From NCBI GenBank assembly GCA_007127395.1, contig SKZL01000331.1:1-10138 (forward strand): DNA of 10,138 nucleotides. Reading direction: 5' to 3'. Below the pieces are notes generated by a model. The model searched no databases and was not told where the DNA came from. It saw only the letters and a program-made list of their open reading frames with translations. Below, piece after piece: positions 4,866 to 10,138 of this stretch. The translations under genes were made by a program, and so were the position numbers. Position 1 is the first letter of the stretch. Each line of letters begins with the position of its first letter. The stretch is from Balneolaceae bacterium. Its GTDB lineage: Bacteria > Bacteroidota > Rhodothermia > Balneolales > Balneolaceae.

Positions 4866-6167
4866 TCAGTTGCTAGAATTACTCATCACGGATGAGATCT
4901 GAGTAGATGTCGATCCCTTAATTTTTTCCACCTCGGTTCGGCTACTGTTCCATACCGGTTTGGCATAATCGATCACTTCGATATAATTTCCATTTTTACC
5001 GAGAATACGATATTGTTCAGTATTCGGTTTACCTTCTAAAACGCGGTTAAGATGGCCGCGTACTTTTTCATGATCGTCAGGATGAACCAGGTCTCTGAGT
5101 GACATTTTAACCGCTTCTGATGAATCTATTCCGGTGATGTTCTGAAAAGTTTCGGAGAAATAGTTGAAAGAAAAATCGCCATCCTTATCCGGCACAAGTG
5201 CGTATCTGTAATCCTTATCGAAATCAAACATCTTCTCCATGTCGGATTTCCGTGTTTGCAGCATAGCCATAATTCTCTTTTGAAGTGATCTGTTTTCAAA
5301 GGATGCGCGGATCACTGTTTGCCCATCAATTTTGAGCAATCTTGTTTTTACATTTACTTCAACAGGATTATTCATTCTGTTGATAATGGTCAGATCATAA
5401 CTGTTATCACCAAAATCACTTGGTTTAAATTGCTCGAATTTGTGTTTGAAATTTTCGATCTGTACATCTACAAGTAAGTCCCAGAATTTTTTCGTTTTCA
5501 ACTCCTCATCATCATATCCGATCAGGTCACGGAATGCTTTATTTGAGGTGATCAAGTTGCCCTGAGAGTCGATATCGACCAGCGTTTTTTTAGACTCCTC
5601 TACGAGCCGGTCGAACTCGATTTGAGAATCGACCACTTTTTTTTCAGAACGTTTTCTTTCGGTGATATCATGTTGGTAGGAGACCCAATGAGTGATTTCA
5701 CCATCTTCATCTGTAAGTGGGTGTATATCCCACTGGTTGATAAACTCTGTCCCATCTTTTCGGTAGTTCACAGTATGGCCAAAAAATGATTGTCCTTCTT
5801 TGAGCCGATCCTTCAATTTGTCAGTAACTGCCCGATCTGTTTTAGGGCCTTGAAGTATCCGTGGAGTTTGTCCGATCGCTTCCTCACGGGTATAACCGGT
5901 CATTTTAGTAAACCCATCGTTAACATAGACAATTTTGGGTCCTGGCTCTTCAAGGTCGAGTGTGGTAATCACAATAGAGTCATAATCGCTGCTGATGGCT
6001 CTTTCCAGTAATTTTAATCTTTTTTGATACTCATCTTTCTCTTGAAGCGTCTCTTGAATAGTCTTTTCAACAAACTTCATCAGTTCGCTGAACGATTCTT
6101 CATCTTTAGAATTTTTCTTTAAGAAGTCTTTTAAATCATTCATGATAGCAATATTCTGTAGGCCCAT
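4866..6167 (-). CDS. Multi-PAS sensory protein with an N-terminal LOV-like PAS lacking the photoactive cysteine
   Basis: This 433-residue soluble protein has no membrane segment and no recognisable kinase, GGDEF, HTH or other output domain. An N-terminal, probably coiled-coil stretch (about 20-58) is followed by PAS 1 (about 59-170), PAS 2 (about 185-295), a short helical linker, and PAS 3 (about 312-423), then a Ser-rich tail. PAS 1 is strikingly LOV-like: GF-TKMTGY (85-92), GQTPRILQGPKTD (99-111), NYRKDG (134-139), N144 and Q165 before HDITE. The residue aligned with the flavin-adduct cysteine is P102. PAS 2 is less conserved (IGYDDEEL, KFWDLL). PAS 3 has NITGID and a PAS_3-like LVHPDDHEKV. 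The protein may sense redox or a ligand and relay this by protein contact. An ATG at 6143 (MNDLKDF) is an equally possible start. The 247 bases before it hold no promoter I can defend. Confidence 0.85.
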   Translation of the reverse strand: MGLQNIAIMNDLKDFLKKNSKDEESFSELMKFVEKTIQETLQEKDEYQKRLKLLERAISSDYDSIVITTLDLEEPGPKIVYVNDGFTKMTGYTREEAIGQTPRILQGPKTDRAVTDKLKDRLKEGQSFFGHTVNYRKDGTEFINQWDIHPLTDEDGEITHWVSYQHDITERKRSEKKVVDSQIEFDRLVEESKKTLVDIDSQGNLITSNKAFRDLIGYDDEELKTKKFWDLLVDVQIENFKHKFEQFKPSDFGDNSYDLTIINRMNNPVEVNVKTRLLKIDGQTVIRASFENRSLQKRIMAMLQTRKSDMEKMFDFDKDYRYALVPDKDGDFSFNYFSETFQNITGIDSSEAVKMSLRDLVHPDDHEKVRGHLNRVLEGKPNTEQYRILGKNGNYIEVIDYAKPVWNSSRTEVEKIKGSTSTQISSVMSNSSN

Positions 6168-6414: not shown

Positions 6415-7581
6415 TCAGCCATTCAAAATAATTTTCGAAATGGTTTGAAGCTGCATATTGGATGTACCTTCATAAATTTTTCCGATTTTGGCATCTCTGT
6501 AGAATTTTTCGACCGGGTACTCTTTTACGTATCCGTAACCGCCAAAGAGGTCGATCGCGAGTGAGCTCAGTTTTTCAGCAACATCAGCGCTGTAGTATTT
6601 GTCCATTGCAGCTTCTTTCAGAAATGGCTGACCCGCCTCTTTGATCCTTGCCGCATTATAGACCAACAAGCGGCACAGTTCGAGTTCTGTAGCCATTTGT
6701 GCCAGCTGGAATTGTACTCCCTGAAATTCAGAGACGGCTTTACCAAACTGCTTTCTTTCCTGAGTGTAGGCGAGTGCGGCATCAAATGAACCCTGCGCGA
6801 TACCAAGCATTTGTGCACCGATTCCTATTCGGCCTTCATTCAATGTTTCAATAGCTACTTTATACCCCTTTCCGACTTCGCCAAGGAGATTCTCTTTTGG
6901 TACGCGTACATCCTCCAGTAGCAACTCACAGGTTGAGCTGGCCCTGATGCCCAGTTTATTCTCTTTTTTTGAGATCGAAAAACCCTCCATTCCCCGTTCA
7001 ACGATAAAACCGGTGATGCCACGATAACCGGCATCCGGATCAACTGTAGCAAAAACCAGGAAGATATCCGCTTCATTGGCATTGGTGATCCACAATTTTG
7101 TGCCATTCAGGATAAAGCCATCTCCATCCTCTTTTGCCGAGCATTTCAGGGCAAAAGCATCACTGCCCGATCCGGCTTCCGATAGACAGTAAGCTCCCAC
7201 TTTTTGGGTGGCGAGCTGTGGAAGAAAGCGCTCTTTGACCTCATCAGAGCCCCATCGGAGAAAAGCATTATTGACGAGTGTGTTTTGAACATCCATAAAA
7301 ACTCCGACAGAGGCATCAACCCTGGAGATCTGTTCAATTGCAAGAATACTCATGAAAAAGCTTCCTCCGCCACCGTTATACTGTTCCGGTACTTCAATTC
7401 CCATAAAACCCATCTCAAAAAACATCTTGATCAATTCGGGGTCCAGTTTCGCGGCCTCATCCATTTCATGAACTTTTGGCTTGATAACAGTGTCTGCAAA
7501 TTCAGCTGCAGCATCCTTTAACATCTGTTCATCTTCGGTCAATTGTGTAAGGGGCGCAATTCGTTCACCGGATTCCATCAT
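6415..7581 (-). CDS. Acyl-CoA dehydrogenase, probably short/branched-chain (2-methylbutyryl-CoA) type
   Basis: This 388-residue flavoenzyme has the full ACAD fold. AYCLSEAGSGSDAFALK is signature 1 (FAD and substrate), and LWITNA is the FAD-contact strand. KENKLGIRASSTCEL, LNEGRIGIGAQMLGIAQG and QFGKAVSEFQGVQ follow, then the C-terminal GGYGYVKEYPVEKFYRDAKI. The catalytic base is E371 in KIYEGTSNMQLQTI. These stretches resemble human ACADSB, which oxidises 2-methylbutyryl-CoA to tiglyl-CoA in isoleucine breakdown and passes electrons to ETF. A butyryl-CoA or isobutyryl-CoA dehydrogenase role remains possible, since substrate range cannot be read reliably from sequence. Two ATGs in tandem (7581, 7578) open the frame. 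It is transcribed divergently from the methylmalonyl-CoA mutase gene across 194 bases, which fits a shared branched-chain/propionate catabolic role. No U-tract terminator follows its stop. Confidence 0.92.
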   Translation of the reverse strand: MMESGERIAPLTQLTEDEQMLKDAAAEFADTVIKPKVHEMDEAAKLDPELIKMFFEMGFMGIEVPEQYNGGGGSFFMSILAIEQISRVDASVGVFMDVQNTLVNNAFLRWGSDEVKERFLPQLATQKVGAYCLSEAGSGSDAFALKCSAKEDGDGFILNGTKLWITNANEADIFLVFATVDPDAGYRGITGFIVERGMEGFSISKKENKLGIRASSTCELLLEDVRVPKENLLGEVGKGYKVAIETLNEGRIGIGAQMLGIAQGSFDAALAYTQERKQFGKAVSEFQGVQFQLAQMATELELCRLLVYNAARIKEAGQPFLKEAAMDKYYSADVAEKLSSLAIDLFGGYGYVKEYPVEKFYRDAKIGKIYEGTSNMQLQTISKIILNG

Positions 7582-7626
7582 GAAAGTTACTTTTTAATTA
7601 ATTTTGGATAGTTTTTGTCAGCCGAC

Positions 7627-7657
7627 AATATACGAAGTTGAAAGCGCTTTTCCGCAA
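7627..7657 (-). promoter_or_regulatory. Possible promoter of the acyl-CoA dehydrogenase gene
   Basis: On the minus strand TTGCGG (7657-7652) and TATATT (7632-7627) are separated by 19 bases, longer than the usual 17. The -10-like box ends about 45 bases before the ATG at 7581. Its spacer contains the LacI-type palindrome at 7639-7652, an arrangement that would allow repression. The match to consensus is modest. Confidence 0.3.
7639..7652. promoter_or_regulatory. LacI/CcpA-type operator-like palindrome
   Basis: The bases TGAAAGCGCTTTTC centre on a perfect 10-bp palindrome (AAAGCGCTTT, 7641-7650) with the central CG typical of LacI-family operators. It matches 12 of 14 bases of an ideal Firmicute cre site, TGAAAGCGCTTTCA. 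CcpA itself would not be expected in this kind of organism, so any LacI-family regulator, or none, could be involved. Confidence 0.35.
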
Positions 7658-7693
7658 CAGAGTAGGCTGAAAAGGTTAGGTTGGCAAGAATGC

Positions 7694-7718
7694 GTTTCAT
7701 ATTTTTTAAAAATGAAAC
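7694..7718. promoter_or_regulatory. 25-bp near-perfect inverted repeat, candidate operator
   Basis: Arms GTTTCAT (7694-7700) and ATGAAAC (7712-7718) flank an AT-rich centre that continues the symmetry (TTT at 7702-7704 with AAA at 7708-7710). In all, 10 of the 12 base pairs around the central base 7706 match. It lies near the middle of the divergent region, about 58 bases before the mutase GTG and 113 bases before the dehydrogenase ATG. Size and symmetry fit a dimeric regulator such as a TetR-family acyl-CoA sensor. No gene ends here, so a terminator role is unlikely. Confidence 0.45.
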
Positions 7719-7775
7719 TTACTGCCGATAGCTGAAAGTCATTGGAAAAATTAAATAACCTGTAAGTGAGGGATT

Positions 7776-10138
7776 GTGGCAAAGGAAGAAAACCGAAAAG
7801 AGAATCTTTTTTTTGAATTTCCACCTGTTGAAAAGGAAGAGTGGGAGAGTCTGATTGAAAAGGAGCTGAAATCTTCTGATTACAAAGAGCAGCTTCGGTG
7901 GGATACAGGTGAAGGCTTCTCTGCACCTCTCTTTCTTATGCGAAATGATCTGGACCGGGATCGCCTGCCGGAACTTTTTCATGAAAAAAAGAGCGGCAAC
8001 TGGACAGCTTGTGAATGGATTGAGGGCGGCGATTTGGTTCAGACCGGTGAAAGGGTCAGGAGGGCATCAGAGGGTGGCTCTGACTCCTGCCTGATACCGA
8101 CAGCTTCAACTGGCAAAGAGGAGGGTGTATGGGTGATCGGCTCAATCGGCCAACTTCACCGGCTCAACGGTTTTACTGATGATAAAAGTGAAATACTTAT
8201 AGACTGGATGGATTCCGCCCGGAATTATCTCAAAATGAGAAATGAAGATGAGCAAAAAAACCTCCAGGCTATTCGTGTATTGATCGATCTTCCGCGTCTT
8301 TTTCTGAAACAACAGGAAGACGGGATCTCAGACCTGCTGAAGGAGCTTTGTGAATATGATGAAATTTGGCCTTCAATTCGCATTTCAGATGCCGTTCAAG
8401 GAGAGCTGAATATGGCTGAAGAGCTGGGTCTGTCACTGGCTCTGGCAGCAGAATTTCTGCTCTGTTTGAAACCATCGGAAAGAGAACGGATGGCAGGTAA
8501 GCTGGTGATCCGTTTGCACTGCGGATCACTAACCTTCCCCGAACTTGCCAAAATTCGCGCAGCCCGATGGCTGTTTGACCAGCTCTATTCTGAATTTGAG
8601 TTTTCATCCAATATTGCTTCCGAGTTATTTGGTGAAATTCATTTTGATGATTCCGATTCTGAAGTATCCGAAATGAATCTGCTGAAAAGTGTCACGGCTG
8701 CGATGAGTGCCGTATCGGGCGGTGCCGGCACGGTTGTCATTCACCCATACAGTCAAAAAGACTCCGAAAACCGTGAACGGACTGCACGGATCACCCGGAA
8801 CATTCACCACATACTTCGGCATGAAGCACATTTTGATAAGGTGATCGATCCTGCAGCTGGCTCCTATTATGTGGAGCATCTGACTCAAACCATTGCAGAG
8901 AGCTCACTGGATCATTACCGGAATGTGGGATCAGAAGGTGGCTTCATTGAGTCTGTAGTGAGCGGGTCGCTCAAAAACAGATTCAAAGGCGTTGATTCGC
9001 AAGGGATAAGAAGAGAGCCTATATCAGATTCCGGCGCAAGGCCGAAGATGGATGTGTTGAGAAAACCGAATTCTACCGGCAGAAAAACCGGTTCAGAGGA
9101 GTGGTTGTCACCCGAAAAAATATCAATTAAAAACAGGTTCAGACCGGGTGATTTAGATGAGGCCACCCATCTGGATTTCGGTGCAGGGACCCCGCCATAT
9201 TTGCGCGGACCCTATGCAACCATGTACACACAGAGGCCCTGGACAATCCGTCAATATGCCGGATTTTCGACGGCTGAAGAGTCGAATGCATTCTACAGGA
9301 GAAATCTGGATGCCGGACAGAAGGGGTTGTCGGTCGCGTTTGACCTCCCCACACATCGAGGGTATGATTCTGACCATCCGCGGGTGAGCGGGGATGTGGG
9401 TAAGGCGGGTGTTGCGGTCGATTCAATCCTGGATATGAAAATCCTTTTTGATGGTATACCGCTGGATCAAATGTCGGTATCTATGACCATGAACGGAGCA
9501 GTTATTCCGGTGATGGCTTTTTATATTGTAGCTGCTGAAGAGCAGGGAGTGTCGCCTGAGAAGCTAAGCGGGACCATTCAGAATGATATCCTGAAAGAGT
9601 TTATGGTTCGAAATACCTATATCTATCCACCCGAGCCATCCATGAGAATTATCGGCGATATTTTTGAATATACAAGCAAGAAGATGCCGCGATTCAACTC
9701 GATCAGTGTGAGTGGATATCATATGCATGAGGCGGGTGCTACCGCTGATCTGGAGCTCGCTTATACCCTGGCAGATGGACTGCAATATGTGCGTCAGGGG
9801 ATCGAAGCGGGCCTCGATATTGATGATTTTGCCCCGCGAATATCGTTCTTCTGGGCGATCGGAATGAATTACCATATGGAGATTGCGAAACTGCGAGCCG
9901 GACGCCTTTTGTGGGCAAAACTGATGAAGCAGTTTGACCCGAAAAACCCGAAATCGCTCTCCCTCAGAGCGCATTGCCAGACATCCGGTTATAGTTTAAC
10001 GGAACAGGATCCAACGAACAATATTACCCGCACCTGTATTGAAGCGATGGCGGCAGCCCTCGGGCATACACAATCGCTGCATACCAATGCGCTGGATGAG
10101 GCGATTGCCCTTCCAACCGATTTCTCCGCAAAGATTGC
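7776..10138 (+). CDS. mutAB: Methylmalonyl-CoA mutase, small- and large-subunit halves fused in one frame; 3' end outside window
   Basis: The frame is open for 787 codons from GTG 7776 to the window edge. An in-frame TGA at 7767 makes this GTG (GAGGG just upstream) the only good start. Residues 1 to about 390 resemble MutA of Bacteroidota: [21 protein letters not shown] near the start, then [17 protein letters not shown], a degenerate [15 protein letters not shown] and [10 protein letters not shown] (358-367). No B12 domain follows. A polar linker (about 391-440) leads into a MutB half from about residue 440. It has [68 protein letters not shown] and GHTQSLHTN. By alignment with P. shermanii MutB (Y89, R207, H244), the catalytic residues are Y494, R612 and H649. 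The enzyme interconverts methylmalonyl-CoA and succinyl-CoA with adenosylcobalamin. The C-terminal cobalamin domain (DxHxxG) should lie beyond the window. Confidence 0.9.
9038..9050 (+). promoter_or_regulatory. Possible internal ribosome-binding site and ATG for a separate large subunit
   Basis: Within the fusion linker, AAGG (9038-9041) precedes an in-frame ATG (9048, residue 425) by six bases. Starting here would give a large subunit beginning MDVLRKPNS, about 15 residues before the conserved MutB-like sequence, which is roughly where stand-alone MutB proteins begin. It may be a relic of the original mutB start or an active second start. Confidence 0.2.

Follow-up and report, generated by a model that had tools for sequence, protein, structure and literature searches.

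In the heterotetrameric form of methylmalonyl-CoA mutase (MCM) the B12 domain resides on a separate subunit, and the chemistry is the same. Homodimer, heterodimer and heterotetramer are the forms named in the available part of one paper (PMC6759758), and in the available parts of two others mutA and mutB appear in operon notation as mutA-mutB (PMC7344785) or as separate genes (PMC11575231). A comparison of Balneolaceae genomes reports, in its accessible text, that MUT and icmF are present and that a cobalamin synthesis pathway is not (PMC9909488). No paper treating a MutA-MutB fusion was found among the top-ranked results of searches of the open-access literature, judged mostly from titles and the starts of abstracts. 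Here we describe such a fusion in a Balneolaceae bacterium, on a contig of 10,138 nucleotides (SKZL01000331.1, C221) that was analysed whole and is called the window below; it comes from a draft genome of 400 contigs that is 64% complete.

A continuous frame for both mutase subunits

The initial annotation read a single-chain MutA-MutB protein in the window, and that reading holds: the frame runs for 787 codons from the GTG at 7776 to 10136 on the forward strand with no stop and leaves the contig at its end. Its parts are the following.

7776..10136, + strand: fused mutA-mutB frame, GTG start, 3' end past the contig; the complete relative P0002 has 1125 amino acids
7776..8969, + strand: MutA-like half, made up of an N-terminal arm and the barrel (residues 1-398), without the B12-like C-terminal domain
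8970..9095, + strand: polar linker, residues 399-440, joining the MutA-like half to MutB
9051..9053, + strand: in-frame ATG, residue 426, the sole methionine of the window's linker and a possible internal MutB start
9096..10136, + strand: MutB catalytic barrel, first 347 residues, the remainder lost at the contig end

The fusion is real and not an artefact. P0002, encoded on another contig, is complete, is identical to the window over residues 1-440 and is 99% identical to it in the MutB part, and this near-identical counterpart excludes an assembly artefact. Its B12 domain lies at residues 999-1110, with DGHDRG at 1008, a region before which the window's contig stops.

The C-terminal part of the frame matches methylmalonyl-CoA mutase in both Pfam and NCBIfam. 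In the N-terminal part the mutase small-subunit model matches residues 213-395 with an E value of 2.4e-34, which is under that model's own cutoff, and this half has the predicted fold of the MutA barrel. It consists of the barrel only, as had been noticed from the sequence at the outset, and profile searches of the window and of P0002 gave no match to a B12-binding domain within it. Aspartate 291 stands opposite the catalytic Gln735 in a BLASTP alignment, the sole catalytic position compared, and on these two features the MutA half is classed as putatively non-catalytic. It differs from a MutA that forms a separate chain with a C-terminal domain, since it is fused, with 41 residues between the barrel match and MutB. 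Membership in the IcmF family was considered and rejected: the IcmF model scores 213 bits against a cutoff of 1500, and in P0002 Pfam finds only mutase and B12 domains, with no MeaB-like GTPase domain. All four catalytic positions of the MutB barrel are inside the window, at residues 494, 612, 649 and 735, which we take to be Y89, R207, H244 and Q330 in Propionibacterium shermanii numbering.

Structure prediction, which had been proposed for the whole chain, gave a confident two-barrel model from AlphaFold2, with a predicted template modelling score (pTM) of 0.92. Both halves match the two chains of the heterodimeric mutase in sequence and in predicted fold, and in two of the fold alignments listed the second half of the linker superposes on the N-terminal arm that MutB has in solved structures. 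For the IcmF rows and 3bic_A the alignment begins at model residue 8-11 and so takes in some of the MutA arm, to an extent that cannot be read from the ranges, and no inference is drawn from them.

Distribution and recurrence of the fusion

The window's genus is represented by 28 genomes, its own included, and conservation of the fusion among these relatives is partial: four are fused (G000, G006, G010 and G023), 23 are split and one (G017) is undecided because its contig stops before MutB. Close relatives are thus mostly split with overlapping stop and start, but not all of them are. In the 21 split pairs of the genus with a listed start, the overlap of the nearest MutB start codon, which is not a proven start, with the MutA stop is 4 bases long in 15 pairs, 14 bases in four and a single base in two. 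A family sample of 92 genomes, some of them without a whole MutB, was examined through frames of at least 800 amino acids and holds six fusions, the four of the genus plus G112 and G113 from another genus; the only other frame of that length, in G103, is split. The branch leading to MutB of G112 and G113 (loci L181 and L182) is very long, at 1.26 changes per column, and their MutA is diverged. Of 148 genomes sampled across the phylum, 112 have a MutB-like match of at least 62% identity (a hand count, two of them partial), and the fused ones among these are G000, G176 and G238. Seven frames of at least 800 amino acids in this sample were read; G176 and G238 are fused, and G135, G142, G148, G197 and G215 are split. 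Frame length was accordingly rejected as a sign of fusion, with two of these seven fused and G103 split. Since fused genomes are few in the genus, family and phylum samples alike, fusion is the minority state.

A wider set of homologues (P0002-P0228, the window excluded) was assembled from two listings of the best 120 matches each, ordered by their similarity to the fused query, and among the matches listed 109 of 227 are MutA-MutB fusions. With eight loci added, this gives 117 fused rows, in each of which a single chain has a MutA match ahead of MutB; at least three proteins are entered twice (P0132/G006, P0125/G023 and P0127/G010), and in several rows the match covers no more than the later portion of the MutA profile. 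Five of the 80 named loci among the matches listed are fused: one each from Flavobacteriales (L033), Flammeovirgaceae (L042) and Marinimicrobia (L096), and two (L036 and L038) cut at a contig edge. The fusion therefore recurs in many Bacteroidota and relatives and is not a one-off, which changes the view of its novelty, and proteins of this kind are already present in the sequence databases, named simply methylmalonyl-CoA mutase. Automatic annotation in this way hides a distinct architecture behind one enzyme name.

Trees indicate that the two arrangements have interchanged repeatedly. A FastTree phylogeny of 225 MutB rows, among them 116 fused ones, requires the fused label to change 26 times, with 15 of the changes forced by the starred branches, and an IQ-TREE phylogeny of 65 hand-picked rows requires 21 changes, with 12 forced. 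A single clade of the 32 fused rows in the latter tree was rejected by the approximately unbiased (AU) test (p 1.5e-5), and one clade of P0002, G023, G112 and G113 was not rejected (p 0.26). The changes may be gains or losses, so the tree counts bound events rather than fusions. All but one of the 15 fused Balneolaceae-type rows group as a single clade in the MutA tree (100/99), next to a split clade that comprises five genomes with a MutA of about 380 residues, the barrel only (97/87). In the MutB tree those five do not adjoin the fused clade, and the nearest split relatives thus differ between the two trees. G006 moves between analyses: FastTree makes it the sister of the remaining fused Balneolaceae-type rows (support 92), the 65-row tree groups it with the split G011 and G021 (support 94), and in the MutA tree it falls outside the fused clade, a single clade not being rejected there (AU p 0.106). 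Its fused protein (L118) has 147 residues between the barrel match and MutB, weakly like the tails of split MutA, and G006 is possibly an intermediate or a separate fusion.

The region between the halves is generally short. No more than 110 residues separate the MutA barrel from MutB in 109 of 116 fused rows, and seven rows, G006 among them, keep at least 147 residues after the barrel. The MutA C-terminal domain is not universal in split MutA either, 38 of 86 having an equally short tail of up to 110 residues. An association of fusion with loss of that domain was not significant over independent pairs (4.6 for, 0.2 against, median p 0.125). The polar linker recognized at the outset is 42 residues long in the window, and linkers have at least 41 residues in Balneolaceae-type rows and a median of 22 in 99 rows of other groups. 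In a small-set comparison with the tails of split MutA and the starts of split MutB, the linkers of the window, G010 and G023 gave no match at E 0.05, and the sole match was that of the G006 tail (best E 5.3e-5). The G023 linker (L135, 6192-6340) contains a 42-base in-frame tandem repeat in 3.5 copies, which suggests that linker length may change by slippage.

The two halves appear to be held to different degrees. Between G010 and G023 the ratio of nonsynonymous to synonymous differences (pN/pS) is 0.32 for the MutA half, 0.37 for the linker and 0.04 for MutB, so the MutA half is constrained, though less than MutB. In 102 rows the match to MutA begins close to the N-terminus. Six of these (P0147, P0165, P0168, P0173, P0180 and P0200) have a MutA region of only 215-276 residues in which both ends of the MutA profile are matched, and the barrel in these six is apparently eroded; one of them, P0173, is a protein of 972 amino acids annotated as Dyadobacter fermentans. 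The catalytic side is well kept: all seven catalytic and cofactor residues are present in 115 of the 117 fused rows, with the tyrosine and the histidine in every row and the arginine and the glutamine in 116 each.

A proposed mode of action and its alternatives

The protein is very probably a working adenosylcobalamin (AdoCbl)-dependent MCM in the form of a covalent pseudo-heterodimer, with MeaB as a separate protein. A non-catalytic MutA, trimmed to its barrel, would continue covalently into the arm with which the catalytic MutB begins, and both halves would pack within one chain like MutA and MutB of the known heterodimer. The joining would make the heterodimer one polypeptide and would fix its stoichiometry at 1:1, as the initial annotation proposed and as the confident predicted structure now supports; it would also give one folding unit. 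The MutB half would interconvert (R)-methylmalonyl-CoA and succinyl-CoA in propionyl-CoA metabolism, and the separate MeaB protein would load AdoCbl. The fusion, its occurrence in relatives, the retained active site and the gene neighbourhood are observed, the MutA fold and the intramolecular packing are predicted, and activity, stoichiometry, oligomeric state and cofactor loading are inferred.

Several observations weigh against this proposal. For most of the MutB chains listed the alignment begins no earlier than model residue 433-440 and is uninformative on the arm, and the fold search compared single chains, so that its matches bear on each half rather than on the packing of MutA against MutB. 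The window's own B12 domain and K604, D608 and H610 lie beyond the contig and were read from P0002. Median identity to P0002 is 23% for the MutA half (83 rows) against 72% for MutB (84 rows), and the role of so fast-evolving a half could be loose. Two of the 117 fused rows miss some of the seven residues: P0223 ends early, and in P0213 the MutB-like part ends early and carries R to G and Q to A changes. The in-frame ATG at 9051 also leaves room for some free MutB. P0213 has 962 amino acids, with a stretch of 250 further residues between its MutA-like and MutB-like parts.

The alternatives differ in what they make of the same features. In split congeners mutA and mutB overlap in different frames, so a single indel could mimic a fusion, and the source genome is a fragmented draft; a frameshift or misassembly joining two genes is nonetheless extremely improbable, given the complete P0002 on a separate contig and the same join in the diverged relatives P0003-P0008, P0010 and P0122-P0127, whose linkers vary in length and sequence, and an indel at the junction would leave the missing MutA C-terminal domain unexplained. 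Translation of the fused message might also start internally, at ATG 9051, and supply free MutB, with both forms in the cell. The linker of P0003 likewise has a methionine, but 8 of the 15 fused Balneolaceae-type linkers have none (GTG and TTG starts are outside this count), and we regard this as quite unlikely.

A different assembly is somewhat less improbable than internal initiation, though still unlikely: two chains could swap halves, or the MutB halves could pair as in human MCM, a homodimer according to the available part of its source (PMC9974510), with the MutA half as an appendage. The polar linker of 42 residues speaks for this, and the six proteins with a shortened MutA region may fit it. 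Against it stand the nearly full-length MutA barrel of the window, the purifying selection on the MutA half in two relatives and the high pTM for one packed chain, in a model of a single chain and not a dimer.

Beyond the pseudo-heterodimer itself, it is conceivable, at slightly less than an even chance, that covalent MutA-MutB is a fourth organization of the mutase, reached independently a dozen times or more and mostly with loss of the MutA B12-like domain. A tethered MutA could then shrink, and through fusion a heterodimer may come to shed its inactive subunit and be left as an enzyme made from a single gene. If so, some lineages keep merely 215-276 residues of the MutA half after tethering. 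The value of the finding lies in the recurrence of the fusion and the apparent erosion of this half. Single-chain versions with graded MutA reduction would make the role of the inactive MutA testable by cutting or swapping within one polypeptide, and they suggest a way to fix stoichiometry in propionate or polyketide precursor pathways.

Gene surroundings and comparison with known mutases

One gene recurs beside the frame:

6415..7581, - strand: acyl-CoA dehydrogenase, divergent neighbour, adjoining fused and split mutA-mutB alike in relatives

Where contigs reach, PAS, SufE and DsbA-like genes often accompany it beside both arrangements. A MeaB gene lies after the split pair in G008 and, in G023, overlaps the fused gene at its end; in G021 the split pair and MeaB are separated by a further long frame. 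A scan of 7500-9200 found one promoter-like site, on the opposite strand, against 1.9 in shuffles, and no terminator; no Rfam family reached its gathering score. LOV domains have NCRFLQ at the motif that carries their photoactive cysteine. The window's PAS-domain protein (4866-6167, - strand), which resembles YtvA-type LOV photoreceptors with a match under the NCBIfam cutoff, has GQTPRILQ at that site, without the cysteine. The same genome also encodes a second acyl-CoA mutase, an IcmF-like frame of about 1177 amino acids (G000:C232; L002 and L003).

Among described mutases the nearest is the MutA/MutB heterodimer of P. shermanii (1REQ) and Mycobacterium tuberculosis (6OXC), whose chains both halves match and whose catalytic residues are kept in the MutB half; the heterodimer has two chains, the small one of 616-637 residues, whereas here there is one chain with MutA reduced to the barrel. 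IcmF (4XC6) is likewise an acyl-CoA mutase naturally fused to a partner protein, but it joins a GTPase chaperone to the mutase, while the fusion here adds a non-catalytic subunit. Heterotetrameric MCM keeps B12 binding on a chain of its own, and in the fusion that domain is attached, as P0002 illustrates. In homodimeric MCM (human MMUT and Sinorhizobium meliloti) one gene makes the enzyme, as here, and in the fold alignment with 2xiq_A the MutB half shares 64% identity with human MMUT; the homodimer, however, consists of two identical active chains, and in each chain of the fused protein one half would be active and the other inactive.
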